Shown: piece after piece, positions 10,764-36,121 of the stretch
How the letters are laid out: each line of letters starts with the position of its first letter
Position numbering within the stretch: the stretch's first letter is position 1
Source of the DNA: Polyangiaceae bacterium
Lineage (GTDB): Bacteria; Myxococcota_A; Polyangia; Polyangiales; Polyangiaceae
Direction: 5' to 3'
Assembly: GCA_009781005.1 (NCBI GenBank)
Contig: WQYX01000030.1
Span: 1-42,260, forward strand
DNA: 42,260 nucleotides
The notes under the pieces: model-generated
The model's input: the letters and a program-made list of their open reading frames with translations, nothing else
Database searches by the model: none
Told to the model about the DNA's origin: nothing
Made by a program: the position numbers and the translations under genes

Positions 10764-12599
<1,836 letters not shown>

Positions 12600-12607
12600 C
12601 CCACTCC

Positions 12608-13210
12608 TTATTCGGATGATTCCGAGGGATCCGCGTCGTCGTGACCGCCGTGGTTCGTCTTCGGCTTGGCAACGATGACCATCGCCGCGCGAACCAGCCT
12701 GTCGCCTTGAAGATACCCTGGTTGCACTTCCGCGACGACGGTTCCTGCAGGGTGCTCGTCCGTGTCGAGCTGCTGAATGGCATCGTGAACAGCGGGATCG
12801 AAGCGCTGACCGACCGCGGGCACTTTCGTGATCCCAACACGCGCGAGAGTGTCGACGAGCTGCCGGAGAATCATGGTGAGACCGTCGGCAACGGGTTTCG
12901 CCTCCGTCGCGGATTGCGCACTTTGAATGGCCCGCTCGAGATTGTCGAAGACGGGCAAGATCTCTCGCAAGAGATCCTCGCGGCCCCCTTTACGCGCATC
13001 TTCGATTTCGCGCCGCGTACGCTTGCGGAAATTGTCGAAGTCGGCGGCCGTGCGAACCCATTGATCCTTCATACGCGCGGTTTCGGCCTTGGCCTCGGCA
13101 AGCGCGTCCGACGCGGGCGCCGATTCTGTGGCGCGCTCTTCGCCTTGGTCGCTCTGGTTTTCGCTCGTCGGTTCGATGTCTTCACCGTCTTGTTCGTTCA
13201 TCTTGGGCAC
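12608..13210 (-). CDS. grpE: GrpE, DnaK nucleotide-exchange factor
   Basis: 200 residues. Acidic disordered N-terminus (about 1-40), long coiled-coil helix ([20 protein letters not shown]...), the conserved '[19 protein letters not shown]' segment, the '[14 protein letters not shown]' helix and the C-terminal beta domain with '[13 protein letters not shown]' and '[21 protein letters not shown]'. The protein is a homodimer that opens DnaK to release ADP. An ATG at 13201 is an alternative start; neither has a clear Shine-Dalgarno sequence. A TATAGT-like -10 element lies just upstream (about 13218-13224 on the reverse strand). Eight bases separate it from dnaK. Confidence 0.93.
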
Positions 13211-19547: not shown

Positions 19548-21476
19548 TTAGCGCGGAGGGTTACTCGCACGCGCGCGAATCGCATCCGGATCGGTTTCGA
19601 GGGGCAGCCACGCGCGAAGAATCACGCCTCCGCCTTCGGCGTTGTCGATCTCGAACGTCCCTCCGTGGATCTCGACGATCGAACGCGCAAGTTGAAGCCC
19701 GAGGCCAAGTGCACCATGACGGCGCGCGCTCTTGGCGCTCTTGAAAGCGTCGAACATCTTTTCGCGCTCATCGTGAGGCAAGCCCTCGCCGCTCGTCTCG
19801 ACCTCGATGCGCAATCGGTCACCCTCGTCCGGCAGCGTCGCGCGCACCTCGACGATGCTCTTCTTGCTGAAGCGCACGGCCGTCATCACGACCGCGGTGA
19901 GCGCTTGCACGATGCGCGTACTGTCCACGAAAAGCGTCGGGATCCCCGGTTGAATCTGGCCCTTGATTTGGACGTCGGTGCCCACCACGAGATCGCGCGC
20001 GTCGAGCACCGCCGACATGACGACATCGCTCACGTCGGTTTGAACCGAAACGATCTCGAGCTCGCCCGCTTCGGCGCGCGCACTGTCGAGGATCGTGTCG
20101 ATGAGCATGAGGAGCTCTCGCCCGCGTTGCTCGATGATCGCGAGGCTCTCGCGCTGACCCTCCGTGAGCGAGCTCCGTCGAACGAGTTCGGCAAAGCCGA
20201 GGACCGCATTGAGAGGTGCCTTGAGATCGTGACTCATGGACGCGAGCAGAAGGCCGCGCATCTGCTCGGTGCTTCCGCGCGCCTCGATGGCTCGCTCTTG
20301 CGCACCGGCGAATTCGCGGAAGACGCCGCCGAGCGCATCGATGGCCCCAAGGAGCGCGCGGACGTTGGAGAAGCGCGCCTCATGGAGGATGATCGTGCCG
20401 CGCATGACGTCGGCGACGCCCGCTCGCTGCACCGCGCGGCGCGCAAGAGCCACGTCGGCCTCGAACGTGACGGCGATGCGCGATCCGAGGATGGCGGCAA
20501 GCGCGATCGCCGCGAGCGCGAGAGCCACGTAGATGGCCACCGTCGGCGACAAGCGAGACGCGTCGAAGCGAATCATCGCCGCCCCGGGTGACACGGAAAC
20601 AACGAGATCGGTCTCGCCTTCGTCGCCATGCCGAACGATGGACGGGCCGCTATACGACGGGTCGAACGTCACCGCGAAGCCGAACTCCGCGGCGGCCTTG
20701 ACGATCTCGGCCACGCCGCGATCTTGCGGTGTCGCGCGCACGCCGCCACCGCGTCCAACCCGGCGCGCCTCATCTCCGAGAGGTTCGAACACGGCGCGCG
20801 CCATGTCGGAGGCATCCTCGACCCGCGTGTCTCGATCGTAGGCGCGCGCGTGAGCATCGACGAGCAACGAGGCACCGAGCGCGACGAACGCAACCGGTGC
20901 CGCAACGGCAAACACGAATCGCTTGCGAACGCTTCCGAGATTTCTTCGGCCGAGGTGGCGGAGGGCCGCGCGCGTTGCATCGGGAGACACAAGCTCGAGG
21001 ACCTTCGCGACCGACGCGCGCAAGGTGACGTACGCGGGCAACGCCGCCGTGCTGACCCACGTGAGAATCAAAAGAACGAGGGCGAGATCGCTATACGGAT
21101 CGAGCTGCGGCGGACGCAGCTTGGGCGAGAGGGTCGCGACGGACAACAGGAACACGAAGCTGACGTTCGCGAGCGAGAGCCGCGCAGGCACCACGTCGAG
21201 CCGGCGCACGTCGAGCTCGCGGATGTTCGGGTTGCCGGCCGCGAGCGCGCGCAGTGCGGGACCGAGCGGACGGGTAAGCACAAGCGTCGCGGCGACGGAG
21301 AACGCGGCCGAGAGTACGAAAAAACCCAGGGCGAGCACGCGCGCACCAGAGGCAGCACTCGGCTCGAGCAAGAGCATGCGCGGTGCGAAGAGCGCGAAGA
21401 GCGTATAGGTGATCGCGCGCACCACGATTTGCAACACGGCGAGCCTGACGACAAGACGCGAGGCCGCACGATTCAT
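19548..21476 (-). CDS. Membrane histidine-kinase homologue with degenerate ATP site
   Basis: 642 residues. N-terminal membrane region with four or five helices (about 12-36, 45-67, 101-117, 130-150), another pair around 186-208 and 312-331 bracketing a periplasmic segment, then a coiled linker, DHp domain with SMSHDLKAPLNAVLGF (phospho-acceptor H416) and a HATPase-like domain (about 515-625). The ATP-binding residues are altered: the N-box Asn is Thr532 (QALTAVVMTAVRFS) and the G1-box Asp is Thr561 (ETSGEGL), although G2 (GALGLGLQLA, 588-597) is kept. Inference: it may accept or relay phosphate, or act as a scaffold to the intact kinase encoded just upstream (4-base overlap), rather than autophosphorylate. 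No response regulator gene is nearby. Confidence 0.85.
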   Translation of the reverse strand: MNRAASRLVVRLAVLQIVVRAITYTLFALFAPRMLLLEPSAASGARVLALGFFVLSAAFSVAATLVLTRPLGPALRALAAGNPNIRELDVRRLDVVPARLSLANVSFVFLLSVATLSPKLRPPQLDPYSDLALVLLILTWVSTAALPAYVTLRASVAKVLELVSPDATRAALRHLGRRNLGSVRKRFVFAVAAPVAFVALGASLLVDAHARAYDRDTRVEDASDMARAVFEPLGDEARRVGRGGGVRATPQDRGVAEIVKAAAEFGFAVTFDPSYSGPSIVRHGDEGETDLVVSVSPGAAMIRFDASRLSPTVAIYVALALAAIALAAILGSRIAVTFEADVALARRAVQRAGVADVMRGTIILHEARFSNVRALLGAIDALGGVFREFAGAQERAIEARGSTEQMRGLLLASMSHDLKAPLNAVLGFAELVRRSSLTEGQRESLAIIEQRGRELLMLIDTILDSARAEAGELEIVSVQTDVSDVVMSAVLDARDLVVGTDVQIKGQIQPGIPTLFVDSTRIVQALTAVVMTAVRFSKKSIVEVRATLPDEGDRLRIEVETSGEGLPHDEREKMFDAFKSAKSARRHGALGLGLQLARSIVEIHGGTFEIDNAEGGGVILRAWLPLETDPDAIRARASNPPR

Positions 21477-23059
21477 CGATGCCTCCGCGAGAAGGGCAAG
21501 GCATCGGAGGGGCGGGACGGCGGACGAGACGAGCGATGCGATGGCGCCACGTCGCTACTGCCGGTTGGCAGAAGCACCTTGAAGGTCGAGCCGCGACCGA
21601 GTTCGCTGTCGACCTGAATGGATCCGTGATGGAGGAGAACGAGCCGCCTGGCAATGGCAAGACCGAGTCCGGTGCCGCGACGTCTCTGCGCTTCGCATCC
21701 TGCCTGCTTGAATTCACCAAAGATGTGAGCGCGTTCTTGCGCCGAAATGCCGGGCCCCGTGTCCGTGACACTGAGCGTCGCAATGCCTCGATCTTCGGCG
21801 ACGCGCACGACCACTTCACCGCGCTGCGTGAACTTGATGGCGTTGTTGACGAGATTGCCGAGGACTTGACGCACGCGGCGGCCATCGGCGCGCGCGAACA
21901 CGGGCGCGCTCGACTCCATGTAGAATGCAATTTGTTTGTCGCCGATGAGGCCGCGCGCTTCGCGCACCACCTCACTTGCAAGACCCGCGAGATCGACCCG
22001 ATCGCGCGTCAGCCGAAGCTGACCGCTCTCGAGCGCCGAGAGCTCGAGGATGTCGTTGATGAGGCCGAGCAGATGCGCTCCCGATCCTCGAATCTGTTCG
22101 ACCTCGTCGCGCGCGGACGCGTCGAGCGGTCCGTCCACTTCCTGCATGAGGATATCGGCGAAGCCGAGGATCGCGTTGAGCGGGCTCCGGAGCTCGTGAC
22201 TGACCGCCGCGAGAAACGCGGCACGTTCGCGATCGGCAGCGTGAGCACGATCGAGATCTTCGCGATACTGGATGCGCGCCTTTTCGAAACGGCCAACGAG
22301 TTTGTTGAACGCTGCGGTGAGAAGACCGACTTCATCCAACGTTCGCGCTGGAATGAGCTCCCCCGTCGGCTCCGTGCGCGCGCGCGCCATGCCTTCGACG
22401 CGATGAGTAACGAAGTCGACGTCGCGCGTGACATCACGCGAGACGGCAAAAGCCACGACGGCCGCCGTACCAAGGAGCAGAACGGCGAGCGCAACGAGCG
22501 CGCTGACGAGCGCAGGTGCGCCAGGCGGCGAGGACGGCTCGGTAACGAAGACGACGAGGCGCGCGGCCGCTCGATTGTCGCCGACGGATCGAACTGCGTA
22601 GCGCGCGCGGCCGAGGCGCATGACCGCGACACCCTTTTTCGCCCGGAGAATTTCCTCGAGCACTGCATGATCGGGCGCACCGAGCGTCACGTCGTGGACG
22701 ACGTTCGCGTCCGGCGCCACGACGAGGAATTCAGCGGCCGTGCGCCGGCTCGCAAGCTGCACGGCTTCGAGCCTTCGACTCTCGGGAAGCTGCGCAAGAC
22801 GAGAGGCAACGGTCGCCGCGATCAGATCCGCACGCGCTGACGCGTACTTGTCGCCCGCACGCGCAAGAGCGTCGAGCCCGACAACACCGATCGAGAGCAC
22901 AACGGCGATGCCGACGATCACAACCACGAGCGGCGCAAGCAGAACGAACACCCTCCCCGCGCCCACGCGCGGTCCACGCGAAGATCCCGTATCCGCCAAC
23001 GAGACATGTGGCCGCGCGTCAGATCCCGGACGGGACTCCGCCCGCAGGTGGTCGATCAC
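21473..23059 (-). CDS. Sensor histidine kinase
   Basis: 528 residues. Two membrane helices (about 38-61 and 184-206) enclose a ~120-residue periplasmic sensor, followed by a HAMP-like linker (about 207-258), DHp domain with AVSHELRSPLNAILGF (H288) and a complete HATPase domain: N-box NLVNNAIKFT with N406, G1 TDTGPGI with D433, F-box 'IFGEFKQA' and G2 RRGTGLGLAIAR. The C-terminal 30 residues are Ser/Arg/Pro-rich. It should autophosphorylate normally. Its stop overlaps the start of the second kinase as ATGA, so both are made together and could form heterodimers. The signal is unknown; position ahead of uppS-cdsA suggests an envelope or lipid-precursor cue. First gene of a six-gene run. Confidence 0.9.
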   Translation of the reverse strand: MIDHLRAESRPGSDARPHVSLADTGSSRGPRVGAGRVFVLLAPLVVVIVGIAVVLSIGVVGLDALARAGDKYASARADLIAATVASRLAQLPESRRLEAVQLASRRTAAEFLVVAPDANVVHDVTLGAPDHAVLEEILRAKKGVAVMRLGRARYAVRSVGDNRAAARLVVFVTEPSSPPGAPALVSALVALAVLLLGTAAVVAFAVSRDVTRDVDFVTHRVEGMARARTEPTGELIPARTLDEVGLLTAAFNKLVGRFEKARIQYREDLDRAHAADRERAAFLAAVSHELRSPLNAILGFADILMQEVDGPLDASARDEVEQIRGSGAHLLGLINDILELSALESGQLRLTRDRVDLAGLASEVVREARGLIGDKQIAFYMESSAPVFARADGRRVRQVLGNLVNNAIKFTQRGEVVVRVAEDRGIATLSVTDTGPGISAQERAHIFGEFKQAGCEAQRRRGTGLGLAIARRLVLLHHGSIQVDSELGRGSTFKVLLPTGSSDVAPSHRSSRPPSRPSDALPFSRRHR

Positions 23060-23068
23060 GCAGCGATC

Positions 23069-23088
23069 CTAGCCCGGATGACTCATGA
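23069..23088 (+). repeat. Solo end of the CTAGCCCGGAT palindromic element
   Basis: CTAGCCCGGATGACTCATGA matches 18 of 20 bases of the terminal repeat of the element at 41921-42104. No opposite end is found nearby. It lies just upstream of the sensor kinase start (23059), where it could overlap the promoter of that operon. From here to 23330 there is no convincing gene on either strand; 23163-23190 carries two copies of ACGATGCCGAAAC. Confidence 0.55.
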
Positions 23089-23330
23089 ACGAGCTTCCAC
23101 GCCCCCGGAAGCTGAACCGGTTGGGGGCCCAGAGCCGCTCTGGACACATTGGCGGCACGCCCTACGATGCCGAAACGTCTCGCGACGATGCCGAAACCGT
23201 CACGCGATCAAGCGAAAAGAGCATGAGAAGCATGAAGCGAGAAAGCCACGTTCGACGCGTCGCGGCATACGATTTTGACGATCGAGCCTTGTCGTCGGAA
23301 TCAAGCAGGGGCACAAGTTATAACGGTGCC

Positions 23331-23621
23331 ATGAGTCTCAAACGCGCGGGCGCAGGCGATCTGACGATCCCCCTCGACATCGGCGATGACTCGGTGGAGA
23401 GCATGCCTCTCGCTCGAAACAGCGTGACGCTTTTCGTGTTCGGCTGGCAGAACGTGGAGCCGGGTCCGCTCTCGTGGGTCTTTCCAAGCCTGCGCGCGGC
23501 GCTCGATGCTGTGCGCACCATGCGCAACGCCGTGCGGTGGTGCGTCGTCGCGGGCAAGGAATGGACGAGTGTGGATGCAGCACGCGCGATGGGACGCGTC
23601 CTCGTGGAGCAATTAGGCTGA
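23331..23621 (+). CDS. Small hypothetical protein
   Basis: 96 residues from MSLKRAGAGDLTIPLDIGDD, ending ...AARAMGRVLVEQLG. Chosen start is the ATG at 23331: the frame is open upstream to 23085, but that part is low-quality. A TATAAC-like -10 lies six bases before this ATG, which would give a leaderless transcript if used. A beta-strand rich first half (NSVTLFVFGWQNVEPGPLSW) is followed by two helices. It has no signal peptide and no recognised domain. Single gene upstream of the metallophosphoesterase (60-base gap), same direction. Confidence 0.6.
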   Translation: MSLKRAGAGDLTIPLDIGDDSVESMPLARNSVTLFVFGWQNVEPGPLSWVFPSLRAALDAVRTMRNAVRWCVVAGKEWTSVDAARAMGRVLVEQLG

Positions 23622-24859: not shown

Positions 24860-27610
24860 CTAACTTGATAAGCGCAGACCGATCGGCAGCCCCTCGCCGA
24901 GGATCGCGATGCGCTCGTCTTCACCGACCTCGACGAGCTCGCGCACGGCCCGAATCCACGCGGGCTTGCTGTGGATCGCAACGAGCTTCTTCTCGACCTC
25001 CTTGCGGTGTCTCTCCGAGACGTCGCGCGCTCGGTCGCCTGTCACGCGCGCGAGTTGCACCGCGGCGTGCGGTGCCGTCGAGACGGCATCCCACTTGAGC
25101 CGCAAGATCCGGTCGAGCCACGCTTCCGCGTTCTTCGCCGGCACCACGTGATGCACGCTTGCGTAAAGGGGCACGCGCGCGCCGATACGACCGAGATCCG
25201 ACCAGAGCCGCGGATCGCCGGACGACCACGTGCGCTCGACGACCCATTCGCCCAGCACGACTCGCCGCGCGACCGGGACGCGCTCGAACGAAGCCAGCGT
25301 CGTGAGCAGTTCATCGGGCATCTCCGGCATGCGTTTCGGCTTCTTCAGCCCCGCGTCCGCGGGCGCGATCACGGCGTCCATCGCGTCGCGAAATGCAGTC
25401 TGCATCGATTCCGTCATCCCGCCCGCGATGCGCCGCCACGCGATGAAGAAGTGCTGCCAACCGCGTGCCTCGCCGGGAAACGCGAGCCTGCTTTCGAAGA
25501 GGGGCCACGCGCGCGCGACACGCGCGACATCGCCGGGATCGCCGACGCCCGGACGCATGCAGTAGCCGAGCAAGAGCCAGTAATTGCGCTCGTGCGGAGC
25601 GCTCCTCCGCCGCGCACCCGGGTTGTCGAGAAGGCGGTCGGCCAAATCGCGTGCAGTCTGCATGGTCCACGACGCGCGATCGCCAAGGACCTTCTCGAGA
25701 TCGCGCACGACATCTTTCACCTCGCGCGGATCGGCCTCGCCTTTTCGACCGAAGACGCGCTCGATGGTTCTGTCGACCTCGGCTCGCTTGACCGTCGATC
25801 CCGCTTTCGCGCTCTGTGGAGTCATGGACGGCGGCGGCGACGCACCTGCCGTGCGCGCGCCTTCGCGGAGCGAAAACTCGAGACGGTGACTTCGCGTTGG
25901 GACATCTTCGCTGCCCGTGATCTCCGTGCATGCGAGCGCAAGCTGCCCCGTCGCAAGGAGCTCGCCACCGAGATGCACGGGCACGATCTCGGCGTTGCTC
26001 GTCTTCGGGATCCGTGCGACGACCGCGGGCAACCGTTCGAAGCTCTCCTCGTCGATCGTCACGAGCGCGCCCGCTTCGTCGCGCGCGACATCCGACGCGA
26101 ACATGTCGAAGCGCACGCTGCGCCCAACGACGAGCTCGAAACGGCGGCCTGCTTCGTAGTGGACCCCCTCCTTCGCACCACGCGGCAATATGCATACTGC
26201 ACGCATTTGGGGCGAGCCCGAATCGTCGGAGGCAACGGCCACGTAGCAGCCATGCGAGGCTCCGCTCTCCACGCGGTAGACCATCCCCCGCCGCGCGAGG
26301 CCGTAGCGGACGGCGCCGCGAGCAACCGCCAGATCCGGATCGCGGTTGGCGAGCATCGCGGGCGGCTTGCCACCGCCCCATGCGGTCATCGCATCGAGCA
26401 GTGCACGGACGATGGGCGTCGCATGAAAGACACCACCGTTCAGGAGCACGGCATCGGGCACACCGTTCGGCAGCGACGCTGCGTGCCGCAAGAGAAACTG
26501 GCGCACGTGGCGCGTGATCTCGGGATCGCGCTCGTACGGCAATCCGAACGCAACGATGCCACCGCGCGCGCGTGGGGGTTGGGCGTCGCCGGAGACCATT
26601 GGAAAGAAACCGCCGAGCAAGAGCTCGAAGACTTCCTCCTTCGTGAGCGTCGTCGTGCGCGCACCACCAACGAGCCTGCCTCCGCGCCCCAAGACCGTGA
26701 CCTTGGCTGCACTCGCTGCGCCAGAGAAAATTCGTTCCTTCGCCTCGCGACACGACGCAACGAGCGCTGCGAGATCGGCCGGCTCGAGGCAACCATTAGG
26801 TTGCACCATACGCGCTTCGGCAAAGTGCGCGAGCGCGAGATCCATGTTGTCGCCGCCGAGAAGAATGTGCCGCCCGACCGCCACGCGCCGCACGGTGAAG
26901 CCGTCGTCGTCCTCGTCGCCCGTGGAAGGCGCCACGGACATGAGCGAGAGATCGGTCGTGCCTCCACCAACGTCGCACACGAGCACGGTGCGCTCGCCGT
27001 GACGCGCGAGTTTCAACACGGCGCGCTTGTCCTCGAGCGCATCGTAAAATGCGGCCGTGGGCTCCTCGAGCAGCGCTGGCTCGAGCCCGACGTTCTCGGC
27101 CGCTTTCAGCGTCAAGACGCGCGCGACTTCATCGAACGACGCCGGCAGCGTGAGCACCACGTCCTGATCCGCAAGCTTCGCCGTTGGGTGCGCCGCATCC
27201 CATGCATCACGGACGTGCGCGAGGATGCGTGCGCTTGCATCCACGGGCGAGATGCGCGGCGAGCCTTCGTCGTGCGAGGCTCCCCATGGAAGGATCGCGG
27301 CGAGCCTGTCGACGGCAGCGTGCGAAAGCCAGCTCTTGGCCGACGAGACATAGCGCGCGGTGATTTCGCTGCCGCGCCGGCGCGCAAACTCACCGACGAC
27401 CCAATCCGGATCGCCCGGGATCTCGGATGGAAGCGGCGCGTAAAGCGAGGATGCCAGAAGCGGCCGCGCCTCCATGACGCGCGCGGCGGTGAGCTGAGGC
27501 ACCTCGAAGATCTTTGGTCGCGGCGGAGTTGCGCGCGCGACGAGCTCCGAGAACGCCACCACCGTGTGCGTGGTTCCGAGATCGATGCCGACGATGAACT
27601 GCGCACCCAT
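24860..27610 (-). CDS. Large Hsp70-family protein with C-terminal DUF3731-like region
   Basis: 916 residues. The first ~400 form an Hsp70 nucleotide-binding domain: 'FIVGIDLGTTHTVVAF' (phosphate 1), 'VVLTLPASFDEVARVLTLKAA', 'LLEEPTAAFYDAL', 'VLVCDVGGGTTDLSLM' (phosphate 2) and 'LLNGGVFHATPIVRALLDAM' (adenosine). Then a short beta segment, and from about 580 a long helical, arginine-rich region (VFGRKGEADPREVKDVVRDL..., 'WLLLGYCMRPGVGDPGD', 'WQHFFIAWRRIAGG') in place of the DnaK peptide-binding domain. This fits the Hsp70-DUF3731 type. It probably hydrolyses ATP, but its client is unknown and the J-protein partner is not evident. It follows the smaller Hsp70 after 33 bases and belongs to a three-gene cassette. 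Confidence 0.88.
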   Translation of the reverse strand: MGAQFIVGIDLGTTHTVVAFSELVARATPPRPKIFEVPQLTAARVMEARPLLASSLYAPLPSEIPGDPDWVVGEFARRRGSEITARYVSSAKSWLSHAAVDRLAAILPWGASHDEGSPRISPVDASARILAHVRDAWDAAHPTAKLADQDVVLTLPASFDEVARVLTLKAAENVGLEPALLEEPTAAFYDALEDKRAVLKLARHGERTVLVCDVGGGTTDLSLMSVAPSTGDEDDDGFTVRRVAVGRHILLGGDNMDLALAHFAEARMVQPNGCLEPADLAALVASCREAKERIFSGAASAAKVTVLGRGGRLVGGARTTTLTKEEVFELLLGGFFPMVSGDAQPPRARGGIVAFGLPYERDPEITRHVRQFLLRHAASLPNGVPDAVLLNGGVFHATPIVRALLDAMTAWGGGKPPAMLANRDPDLAVARGAVRYGLARRGMVYRVESGASHGCYVAVASDDSGSPQMRAVCILPRGAKEGVHYEAGRRFELVVGRSVRFDMFASDVARDEAGALVTIDEESFERLPAVVARIPKTSNAEIVPVHLGGELLATGQLALACTEITGSEDVPTRSHRLEFSLREGARTAGASPPPSMTPQSAKAGSTVKRAEVDRTIERVFGRKGEADPREVKDVVRDLEKVLGDRASWTMQTARDLADRLLDNPGARRRSAPHERNYWLLLGYCMRPGVGDPGDVARVARAWPLFESRLAFPGEARGWQHFFIAWRRIAGGMTESMQTAFRDAMDAVIAPADAGLKKPKRMPEMPDELLTTLASFERVPVARRVVLGEWVVERTWSSGDPRLWSDLGRIGARVPLYASVHHVVPAKNAEAWLDRILRLKWDAVSTAPHAAVQLARVTGDRARDVSERHRKEVEKKLVAIHSKPAWIRAVRELVEVGEDERIAILGEGLPIGLRLSS

Positions 27611-27643
27611 TCGGAGGGTGTTTACCAGCCGCCGCGAGCGACG

Positions 27644-29478
<1,835 letters not shown>

Positions 29479-29482
<4 letters not shown>

Positions 29483-30069
29483 AGCTCCACCTCGGCCTGG
29501 GCAACGATGCGTGCGTCGTGCTCGCCAACAGCCGTGGGCAGCGAGATTGCGGTGACCTTCCAACCGCGATGCTGAAGCGTGCCCGTGTACGGCGCCGTGC
29601 CCTGCACGTTGCCAGTGAGCTTCACTTCCTCCGCGTTGAACCCCGGAGGCAAGGTGACACGAGCACCTTCCTGTTCCGCGCGTACAGCTTCGAAGGTCAC
29701 GTGAGCGCGCAATGCTTTGCGACAGCCCGCATGCACGATGCGCGCTGCAGCTCCGATGTCAGAATCAGCGAAGCTCGCGACGTCTTCTTCGAGGAAATCG
29801 ATGAGCCGGCCTTCGCGCTGGAGCAATGCGAGAAGTTGGAGGGCCGCGTCGATCGGCGGTGCGGCCGGCGCGATAGGCGCGGACTGCACGGTAACGACAG
29901 GCGCCGGTTCGGGCGCGGCCTCGGGGAGCACACGCTCCTTTTCATGCGCCGGCGGGAGCTGCTTGATGTCGTAGACGTCACGCGCGTAAACGCCGTTGAA
30001 CAGGACGCGGAAGAAGCAGATCCACGCAAACCAGAGCCTCGTCAGAAAGGACAGCGGAGGGGAAGGCAC
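29479..30069 (-). CDS. DUF2760 protein
   Basis: 196 residues from a GTG at 30069, where the family's amphipathic/hydrophobic start lies (FLTRLWFAWICFFRVLFNGV, residues 8-27). An Ala/Pro-rich linker (about 48-72) leads to a domain of helices and strands (LQLLALLQREGRLIDFLEED, 'VHAGCRKAL', 'GTLQHRGWKV') typical of DUF2760. Its stop overlaps the start of the following Hsp70 gene, so the two are translationally coupled; in other proteobacteria DUF2760 genes also sit directly before this Hsp70 pair (recalled context). Inference: a dedicated, possibly membrane-attached cofactor or client adaptor for the two Hsp70 proteins. Its biochemical activity is not established as far as I know. Confidence 0.82.
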
Positions 30070-34657: not shown

Positions 34658-35962
34658 TCACTGGAAGTCTTGCGTGGCCCAATATGTTTTTTCGTCCGCG
34701 CTGGCCGCATATCCACAAGCAACTTTCGTGTATTTCGAACTGGTCATCGCGGCGGAACCTCCGGCCCACATCTGAGCAAGGCATTTCGTGATGCTTTGAT
34801 CGATAGGCATCGGCCAGCCGGTACACTCGCTTTGCGTTCCCCCGCCCCCACCAAGACACTCCGGGAACGTGCTGTGAGGGATGTTCTTGGCTATGTCGGT
34901 TGAAGCTGCCTTGGTGACGCACGATTCGGCACTCGTCCAGCGCGCGAGCGCCGGCAGACCACGCGTCGCGCGGTATCCGTTGATGGTATCCACACAGAGC
35001 TGCTGAAGGTCGACCGCCGGAGTCCCAGAGCTCGCTGGTGGGGTGCTTGGAGTCCCCGCATCCGGGGACGACAGGTTCGGATTGGAGTTATTTTCATACC
35101 ATGGCTGGGCACCGGCGAGCTGGTAACCCGAGAGAATGAGACTCTTGAACGGCGAAAGCTTGGTGTAGATTTGCCTCGCGCTGGAACCCTGGCACGCTCC
35201 ACCACGTGAGACGACACCGAGGACTGCATTTGCGGCCGAGAATGCAGGGCCACCGCTGTCGCCCGAACAAACCGACTCGCCGAGCTCGAATTCGTTCGGT
35301 GGCATGGATCCAGGTCCAACGGCGAGAACAGTTAGGCCGGTGCGTTCCTGGCGGACACTGGGGAGGGAGGAGGCCCCCTGACTTGTCAGGCCCCACCCAA
35401 CCGCGGTGACGCTCTCACCAACTTTCACGTCCGAGTCGAGCCGCACTGGGGAAATCGGCATGTTGGTAATGGCGGTGTCGAGAACGATGAGCGCAATGTC
35501 GTGGTTGCAGAGGTTCGTCGAACCATCGGTGAGAACCTGCGCACCTCGCGCGTTGTACGACGTTGTTGGGTTGGCAGGCATCGTCTGGCCGGTGTGCACG
35601 TAAAGCGTGCTCGGACTGTAGCTCGCTCCGACGTTGCCGCCGCCAGCCGGCGTACCATCGGAATAACATGAGACGGAGCTATCCGCCGGCGCGACGCAGT
35701 GGTGAGCCGTGAGCACCAGCTTCGGCGCGAGAAGGATTCCCGTGCATGAATCATAGCTGTAGGAGGTTGAGGTCTGGGATGTCGTGTGGGTGAGAAGAAC
35801 AACCGAATTCTGGGATGCATCTGACGCCGTACCACCGATGATGGGCGAGATTGCCTCACCGGGATTCTCACTCGGCTCGTCAGACTCCGTCGCGGAAGAG
35901 CACGCGACAAACGCCAAAGATGAAAGAACGAGGGGGAGGAAGAAGCGTGTGTGCGTTTTCAT
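34658..35962 (-). CDS. Trypsin-like serine protease fused to a CAP/SCP domain (lipoprotein)
   Basis: 434 residues from the ATG at 35962, which begins the signal peptide (lipobox FVA-C21). Residues about 41-285 are a chymotrypsin-fold protease: mature start IIGGT (41-45), TAHHC with H88, NHDIAL with D155 and GDSGGP with S236. After a Ser/Pro linker (about 290-318) comes a CAP/SCP-like domain (about 320-434: TINGYRATRGLPALARW, 'IPHSTFPEC', ...YTKVACGYAA), with several cysteines likely paired. IIGGT implies activation by cleavage before residue 41, as in trypsinogen. CAP domains bind lipids or act as proteases; joined to a trypsin domain the likely role is surface-bound predation, defence or processing (inference). 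The mRNA start is preceded by strong inverted repeats (35963-36001). Confidence 0.85.
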   Translation of the reverse strand: MKTHTRFFLPLVLSSLAFVACSSATESDEPSENPGEAISPIIGGTASDASQNSVVLLTHTTSQTSTSYSYDSCTGILLAPKLVLTAHHCVAPADSSVSCYSDGTPAGGGNVGASYSPSTLYVHTGQTMPANPTTSYNARGAQVLTDGSTNLCNHDIALIVLDTAITNMPISPVRLDSDVKVGESVTAVGWGLTSQGASSLPSVRQERTGLTVLAVGPGSMPPNEFELGESVCSGDSGGPAFSAANAVLGVVSRGGACQGSSARQIYTKLSPFKSLILSGYQLAGAQPWYENNSNPNLSSPDAGTPSTPPASSGTPAVDLQQLCVDTINGYRATRGLPALARWTSAESCVTKAASTDIAKNIPHSTFPECLGGGGGTQSECTGWPMPIDQSITKCLAQMWAGGSAAMTSSKYTKVACGYAASADEKTYWATQDFQ

Positions 35963-36001
35963 GTGTATACACTTGATGCGGCTGCGCCGTAGCATCAAGT
36001 G
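35963..36001 (-). promoter_or_regulatory. Overlapping inverted repeats directly upstream of the protease start codon
   Basis: GTGTATACAC (35963-35972) is a perfect ten-base palindrome touching the ATG. CACTTGATGC (35970-35979) and GCATCAAGTG (35992-36001) form a perfect ten-base stem, extended by GGC/GCC around a TGC loop with a three-base bulge. In the mRNA this hairpin would end about eight bases before the ATG, where a ribosome-binding site should be; no Shine-Dalgarno is visible. Either an operator or a translational control hairpin. The rest of 36002-36121 is unusually AT-rich and could carry the promoter. Confidence 0.5.
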
Positions 36002-36121
36002 CAATCAAACACGCAATCCCCATTTTCCCCATTTCAATTGTAATCCTTGAGGCAGATTGGAAATTTTGACTGTAAATATTTAGTAAAGAAAGAAACCCGT
36101 GCCAAACACGCCTGCCATCTG

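Follow-up and report, generated by a model that had tools for sequence, protein, structure and literature searches.

Histidine kinases are taught as self-phosphorylating homodimers, and the hetero-kinases that have been demonstrated are few and mostly single cases. The window analysed here, a stretch of 42,260 nucleotides of Polyangiaceae DNA, carries two overlapping histidine kinase genes, HK1 and HK2. It raises the question of what HK2 does with a phospho-acceptor histidine that stands beside a degenerate ATP site. The two genes and the positions discussed below are the following:

21473..23059, minus strand: HK1, 528 aa, GTG start; membrane HisKA histidine kinase, intact, the proposed ATP-dependent donor
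22196..22198, minus strand: codon of HK1 H288, whose equivalent His is replaced in 8/8 pairs of the f17 order
21473..21476, minus strand: overlap of the HK1 stop with the HK2 start, 4 nt, ATGA type
19548..21476, minus strand: HK2, 642 aa, ATG start; membrane pseudokinase with an intact phospho-acceptor His and a degenerate ATP site
20229..20231, minus strand: codon of HK2 H416, the phospho-acceptor His, which is His in 111/111 loci of the order
19893..19895, minus strand: codon of HK2 A528, at the site of the first N-box Asn (HK1 N402)
19881..19883, minus strand: codon of HK2 T532, at the site of the Mg/ATP N-box Asn (HK1 N406); Asn in 0/98 covered rows of the window's family
19794..19796, minus strand: codon of HK2 T561, at the site of the adenine-binding G1 Asp (HK1 D433); Asp in 1/96 covered rows of the window's family
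19695..19715, minus strand: retained HK2 G2 loop GALGLGL, residues 588-594

Pfam recognised both kinase domains above their cut-offs in each protein: HisKA at 279-346 (61.1 bits) and HATPase_c at 392-499 (96.6 bits) in HK1, HisKA at 407-471 (58.2 bits for a cut-off of 26.9) and HATPase_c at 518-627 (68.9 bits) in HK2. It found no Response_reg domain in either. The motif residues are H288, N402, N406, K409 and D433 in HK1 and H416, D417, A528, T532, R535 and T561 in HK2. A first-pass annotation of this DNA had equated T532 of HK2 with N406 of HK1 and T561 with D433, and this held exactly, with the right residue numbers; its statement that HK2 retains H416 and the G2 loop held as well. The losses are wider than it said, since the substitutions affect the Lys and each of the two N-box Asn (N402 to A528, K409 to R535). 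It can also be completed on one point: the Gly-x-Gly that follows T561 (G563, G565) persists in the window HK2, though it is gone in most of the family. Measured against a competent HisKA kinase, HK2 has the His and the D/E residue and lacks the N-box Asn and the G1 Asp; ATP binding and autophosphorylation were not assayed.

The window's genome contains 31 HisKA matches. Loci were obtained for 30 of them and 29 could be aligned over the ATP site, the L230 protein having no catalytic domain. The N-box Asn was missing in just two of these 29 kinases, HK2 and the protein of L224. Because this loss is rare in its own genome and, as described below, extends over the whole family while the His is invariant, the state of HK2 exceeds what chance would give. 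The L224 protein (G000:C26:3721-3930, minus strand) is a second degenerate HisKA protein of this genome, in which an HDLRNP box and the G2 helix are kept while the N-box Asn and G1 are lost.

Structure models were calculated with AlphaFold2. The HK2 model, obtained with the 30-sequence HK2 alignment A1 (mean pLDDT 82.3, pTM 0.53), displays six long N-terminal helices and a small alpha/beta segment near 255-304, followed by a long helix running into the DHp (370-433, then 439-469) and by a catalytic fold up to residue 625. By the look of this model, with six long helices ahead of the DHp, HK2 is predicted to be a membrane sensor. The HK1 model (80.9 and 0.47) has two long helices flanking an alpha/beta segment ahead of the DHp. 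These single-chain predictions are silent on ATP binding and on an HK1:HK2 complex. The five best Foldseek matches include GacS (7z8n), RetS (6dk7) and the RetS-GacS co-complex (7n0e), in agreement with the sequence search, and the DivL structure (PDB 4q20) was among the matches of both the sequence and fold searches.

Of 183 genomes searched in the order, 113 gave a match at 1e-60 to a profile made from the 30 HK2 sequences of A1. Together, 96 retrieved regions and 15 earlier loci make 111 loci, with 111 HK2 and 101 HK1 rows; the HK2 rows comprise 100 from the window's family (f1), 5 from f8 and 6 from f3, f5, f9 and f11. One of the 100, L056, is a named record whose membership of the family is assumed. 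The HK2 His was present in 111/111 rows, followed by Asp in 109 and by Glu in 2. No N-box Asn was seen in the 98 covered rows of the window's family, where His (56), Thr (15) and Ser (9) are the commonest replacements, nor in the six rows of f3, f5, f9 and f11, all of which have His there; it is present in 5/5 rows of f8. The G1 Asp is found in one of 96 covered rows of the window's family, in 5/5 of f8 and in 4/6 of f3, f5, f9 and f11. Every box (N, N, K, D and GxG) is intact in three HK2 rows only, all from f8, and the GxG is kept in the window's genus. Four residues after the His, Ser occupies the position in 66/100 rows of the window's family and Ala or Gly in 32/100, the window's genus among the latter. 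The HK1 orthologues were uniform: the His, both N-box Asn, the G1 Asp, both G1 Gly and two G2 Gly are present in 101/101.

Mean identities of the sequence blocks were computed with about one row per genus (47 HK2 and 41 HK1 rows, the f11 row L200 and L056 included). They were 0.85 for HK2 versus 0.84 for HK1 in DHp helix 1 and 0.76 versus 0.69 in DHp helix 2, but 0.53 versus 0.78 in the N-box, 0.43 versus 0.74 in G1 and 0.38 versus 0.60 in the lid, with 0.75 versus 0.80 in G2 and the next helix. The phosphotransfer domain of HK2 is therefore constrained as tightly as that of HK1, and its ATP site is not. The arrangement of the genes is conserved too: both lie on the same strand in 101/101 pairs, and the 4-nt overlap is found in 89 of the 99 pairs whose HK2 start could be placed and at the same position in 20/21 further, more distant loci. 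For this count the HK2 start codon nearest to the HK1 stop was chosen, which biases toward near positions, yet a 4-nt overlap is a single position. The f8 HK2 proteins, in which the N-box Asn is kept, also carry a C-terminal tail, and a PTVQMPAL-like motif is common to the three tails that were read (L023, L027 and L033).

The survey was extended to 377 genomes drawn from the phylum, and 16 regions were taken from the further matches. Fifteen of them contained an HK2 homologue, 14 of these with an adjoining HK1; one locus (L296) is truncated by a contig end and another (L301) is a lone ordinary kinase. The 14 more distant HK1 have N and D intact in 14/14 and the His in 13/14, while the 15 more distant HK2 have the His in 15/15 and the N-box Asn in a single case (L290, f18). 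A second set of ten regions yielded the fusion of genome G498 described below and two f17 pairs that are part of the counts given here; the other seven contained nothing but ordinary kinases, so a dead neighbour is not general to any kinase match. Summing up, 134 HK2 were collected (111, 15, 7 from f17 besides that of G308, and 1 from G498). The His and its following acidic residue are present in 134/134; the N-box Asn is missing from 125, is present in 7 (the five of f8, L290 and G498) and falls outside the covered part in 2. For HK1 the total is 122 (101, 14 and 7, the G498 fusion being excluded). The N-box Asn and G1 Asp are there in 122/122; 114 retain the His and 8 do not.

The eight losses of the HK1 His come from another order of the class. 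In G308 (f17), HK1 has Ala in place of the His and reads FLANVAAEIGAPLEEI, as against FLAAVSHELRSPLNAI in the window, with its ATP boxes NLVGNAVKF, DTGPGI and GAGLGL intact; the gene that follows it, HK2, reads SHDLRSPLNSVLGF and has a broken N-box. The order of G308 was searched at 1e-35 over 14 genomes. An HK2 match was obtained in 9 and an HK1 match in 10, several of which are other kinases, and no HK2 match at 1e-35 was found in 5/14. The f17 pairs, from eight genomes, have the HK1 His replaced in 8/8, by Ala in G308, Lys in G497, Arg in G489, Val in G485, G386 and G499, Leu in G496 and Gln in G490. In all eight HK1 the Glu after the replaced His is present and the N, N, D and Gly positions are intact. 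The eight HK2 all have the His and Asp and the retained G1 Asp, and their N-box Asn is changed to Arg (7) or Glu (1). A different arrangement occurs in G498 (L333 2474-5617, minus strand), where a single frame of 1048 aa fuses an HK1-like part to HK2. The HK1-like part consists of a sensor and a DHp (73 bits to the HK1 model) with the His changed to Ala and no catalytic domain; the HK2 part is a whole HK2 whose His is intact and whose catalytic domain is only partly so. This fusion argues for a physical association of HK1 and HK2, but it comes from a single genome and is in an odd catalytic state. It is not a clean case, because the HK1 catalytic domain is gone and that of HK2 only partly intact.

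In order to follow the history of the pair we built a tree from 94 rows and 198 columns of the DHp and CA domains, with the His, N, G1 and G2 boxes excluded and one or few rows per family rather than all 134. All 36 HK1 fall on one side of a branch (98/92), all 36 HK2 likewise (100/99), and the 22 other kinases, taken from the window's genome and from f17 genomes, stay outside. The f17 HK1 and f17 HK2 form one clade each, nested in the HK1 and HK2 clades respectively. Two separate clades imply that the pair is old. The state of the N-box Asn requires at least three changes on this tree and the HK1 His at least one loss. Under a losses-only model, which is possible, the Asn was lost separately in f16, in the window's family and in the group of f17, f3, f5, f9 and f11, and kept in f8 and f18; one loss with two regains costs the same and may equally have occurred, as the count does not exclude it. 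Gene conversion from HK1 was considered as the origin of the intact f8 HK2 and is unsupported: these proteins cluster with the HK2 of the window's family rather than with HK1.

The surroundings of the pair were also examined. A Pfam scan of 28 ORFs of the window found no Response_reg gene, and no constant neighbouring response regulator or partner emerged among the scanned neighbours of HK1/HK2 loci (Pfam on 20 neighbours). Clustering of flanking ORFs was swamped by the shadow ORFs of GC-rich DNA, and the neighbours came from a crude gene caller that missed some HK2 genes. Those identified by Pfam include ruvB, a REC-GAF-PAS-PAS-HisKA protein, Ser/Thr kinases, an acetyltransferase, an amidase and others. 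A general link to cell-envelope lipid genes was rejected: uppS, cdsA and gdh come directly after HK2 only in the window's genome and G009, and uppS, where present in other surveyed loci, lies about 4 kb or more from HK2. Divergent from HK1 is a gene of 178 aa without Pfam family (window 23085-23621, plus strand), part of which was seen upstream of HK1 on the opposite strand in 13/49 loci, many being too short to show it. Ser/Thr protein kinase genes stand upstream of HK1 in several genomes (L118 97-2313, L122 7610-9781, L180 104-2230).

Other observations were made along these loci. In the window's genome (G000:C25, L230/L222) a HisKA protein without catalytic domain ends right at the start of a complete kinase's open frame, and the REC-GAF-PAS-PAS-HisKA protein of L122 (337-2367, minus strand) has no HATPase_c; either could perhaps belong to a second split or relay pair. 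The window further contains a tandem of two Hsp70-like genes (24860-29563, minus strand), the first with the DnaK-related DUF3731, a separate dnaK-grpE pair (10764-13210) and a single protein joining Trypsin and CAP domains (34658-36004, minus strand).

What the sequences establish is which motif residues each protein has and how well they are conserved, that the pairs are orthologous, that the overlap is conserved, and that one other order of this class shows reciprocal loss. On these grounds we consider it likely that HK1 and HK2 form one two-protein split histidine kinase in which HK1 phosphorylates HK2 in trans. This trans-phosphorylation is inferred from sequence alone, as are the hetero-oligomer, the direction of transfer and the onward transfer. 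The catalytic domain of HK1 would bind ATP and phosphorylate H416 of HK2, most likely within a hetero-oligomer formed through the DHp helices of the two proteins, and phosphorylated HK2 would hand the phosphoryl group to a response regulator encoded elsewhere, not next door. With a membrane sensor on each partner, both inputs would govern whether HK2 becomes phosphorylated. The direction HK1 to HK2 fits best because an invariant acceptor without the Mg-ATP ligand is accompanied by an overlapping gene whose ATP site is always intact, and because in the f17 order the protein bearing that site lacks an acceptor. An intact ATP site on one partner only, the first mark of a split kinase, is found here (HK1 122/122; HK2 N-box Asn lost in 125/132 covered). 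An acceptor on the other partner only is found in the f17 order alone, in 8/8 pairs, and not in the window, where HK1 keeps H288. In the window's family trans transfer is not forced, since HK1 keeps its His in all pairs and may autophosphorylate as well; the claim inferred for the window pair is accordingly one step weaker.

The first-pass annotation had offered two readings of HK2: either its overlapping partner phosphorylates this pseudokinase in trans, or HK2 regulates that partner. It had held that orthologues with intact N and G1 boxes would refute it. The alignment of orthologues it called for shows that the loss of the N-box Asn is conserved and not a decay confined to one genome. The refuting kind of orthologue does exist as a minority, the N-box Asn being kept in 7/132 covered HK2 and the full N/N/K/D/GxG set in 3. 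These three f8 proteins with all their ATP boxes are counter-evidence to a dead HK2; on the tree the minority can be read as the outcome of several separate losses from an active ancestor, a possibility no more parsimonious than one loss and two regains. Moreover, the G1 Asp is kept in the HK2 of several families (4/6 in f3, f5, f9 and f11, 8/8 in f17), so that some HK2 may still bind nucleotide. Between the two readings, sequence evolution favours the first, because the HK2 His and acid are kept in 134/134, the HK1 ATP site is intact in 122/122 and the f17 HK1 lack the His in 8/8.

The regulator reading deserves attention nonetheless. HK2 would then act allosterically on HK1, as DivL does on CckA or RetS on GacS, its DHp binding shifting the balance between kinase and phosphatase while its own His stays unphosphorylated. 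In its support, GacS, RetS and their co-complex are among the solved structures closest in sequence and fold, and the His is dispensable in the ChrS pseudokinase (PMC9491836). We find it unlikely, as it leaves the invariant His and acid of HK2 (134/134) unexplained, and as control of HK1 autophosphorylation cannot be the role of HK2 in f17, where HK1 has no His. HK2 could otherwise be a phosphotransfer protein of the Spo0B/ChpT kind, for which a receiver domain rather than HK1 would be the phosphate source. A His kept on a DHp beside a dead ATP domain agrees with this. However, HK2 resembles a membrane sensor in its model and not the soluble DHp protein expected, the constant neighbour with an intact ATP site has no explanation, and the f17 HK1, without a His, could not initiate a relay; we regard this origin of the phosphate as very unlikely. 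Equally remote is a weak kinase or a phosphatase of a response regulator. The kept G2 loop, the GxG of the window's genus and the Ser at His+4 in 66/100 of the family count in its favour. Against a weak kinase, the window HK2 lacks both the N-box Asn and the G1 Asp. Against a phosphatase, the Ala or Gly at His+4 in 32/100, the window's genus included, is ill-suited to a conserved phosphatase, and the phosphatase action of such proteins needs no invariant His.

Split kinases are an accepted kind, of which CheA3/CheA4 of Rhodobacter sphaeroides is the type case: the ATP domain and the phospho-acceptor are on different proteins and neither is phosphorylated alone with ATP (PMC3591291, PMC6829392). 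Hik36/Hik43 is likewise a split CheA (PMC7656254). In CheA3/CheA4 the split arose through loss of whole domains from CheA, whereas HK1 and HK2 both keep HisKA and HATPase_c and have lost single boxes. Split, bifunctional proteins could make up as much as 1.7% of histidine kinases (PMC3591291), an estimate counted from HisKA proteins without HATPase domain (PMC3591291); such counts would miss HK1/HK2 because Pfam detects both domains in each protein. The nearest experimental model, by analogy only since homology has not been established, is FasB/FasC of group A Streptococcus. These adjacent sensor kinase genes encode proteins that form a heterodimer by two-hybrid (PMC12675982). The kinase domain of FasC is dispensable and its H246 needed, and the authors propose that FasB phosphorylates FasC, a pseudokinase (PMC12675982). 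The FasB/FasC locus holds the regulator FasA, unlike the window, without a response regulator gene among its 28 scanned ORFs; the loss of the active partner's His seen in f17 is not known from FasB/FasC. RetS/GacS of Pseudomonas aeruginosa is alike in being a heteromeric kinase pair and in providing the nearest solved DHp-CA relatives (PDB 7n0e, 6dk7, 7z8n), but GacS has a receiver domain and HK1 and HK2 have none; a review describes RetS as an inhibitor (PMC12189002). In Caulobacter, DivL is a pseudo-histidine kinase acting on a partner kinase (PMC4211667, PMC5361649). DivL has a Tyr at the His position, while HK2 keeps its His. Rv0600c/Rv0601c of Mycobacterium tuberculosis is a split pair; no paper on its biochemistry was found in the literature searched. 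No paper on the HK1/HK2 pair itself was recognised in the literature searched, most subscription papers lying outside it.

Split kinases being already known, what appears new, as far as sequence alone allows, is a pair with full domains in both proteins, caught at several stages of the split. A bolder reading, toward which we lean with some reserve, is that of an ancient two-protein kinase present in nine or more families of a single class, whose split was made by reciprocal decay: both partners would have been active at first, then the ATP site of one would have been lost and, within a single order, the histidine of its partner, with one fused chain besides. Phosphate would then pass only from the HK1 ATP site to the HK2 His, and the pair would act as a two-sensor AND gate. 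For annotation the pair is a warning, as with Pfam scores above cut-off for both domains a search by domain content sees only ordinary kinases. In this group of myxobacteria-like organisms, the graded series, which runs through at least nine families and leads from pairs with both partners intact to pairs that complement each other fully, would show a route from a homodimeric kinase to an obligate pair, in which the direction of the phosphate can be tested by mixing the two proteins.
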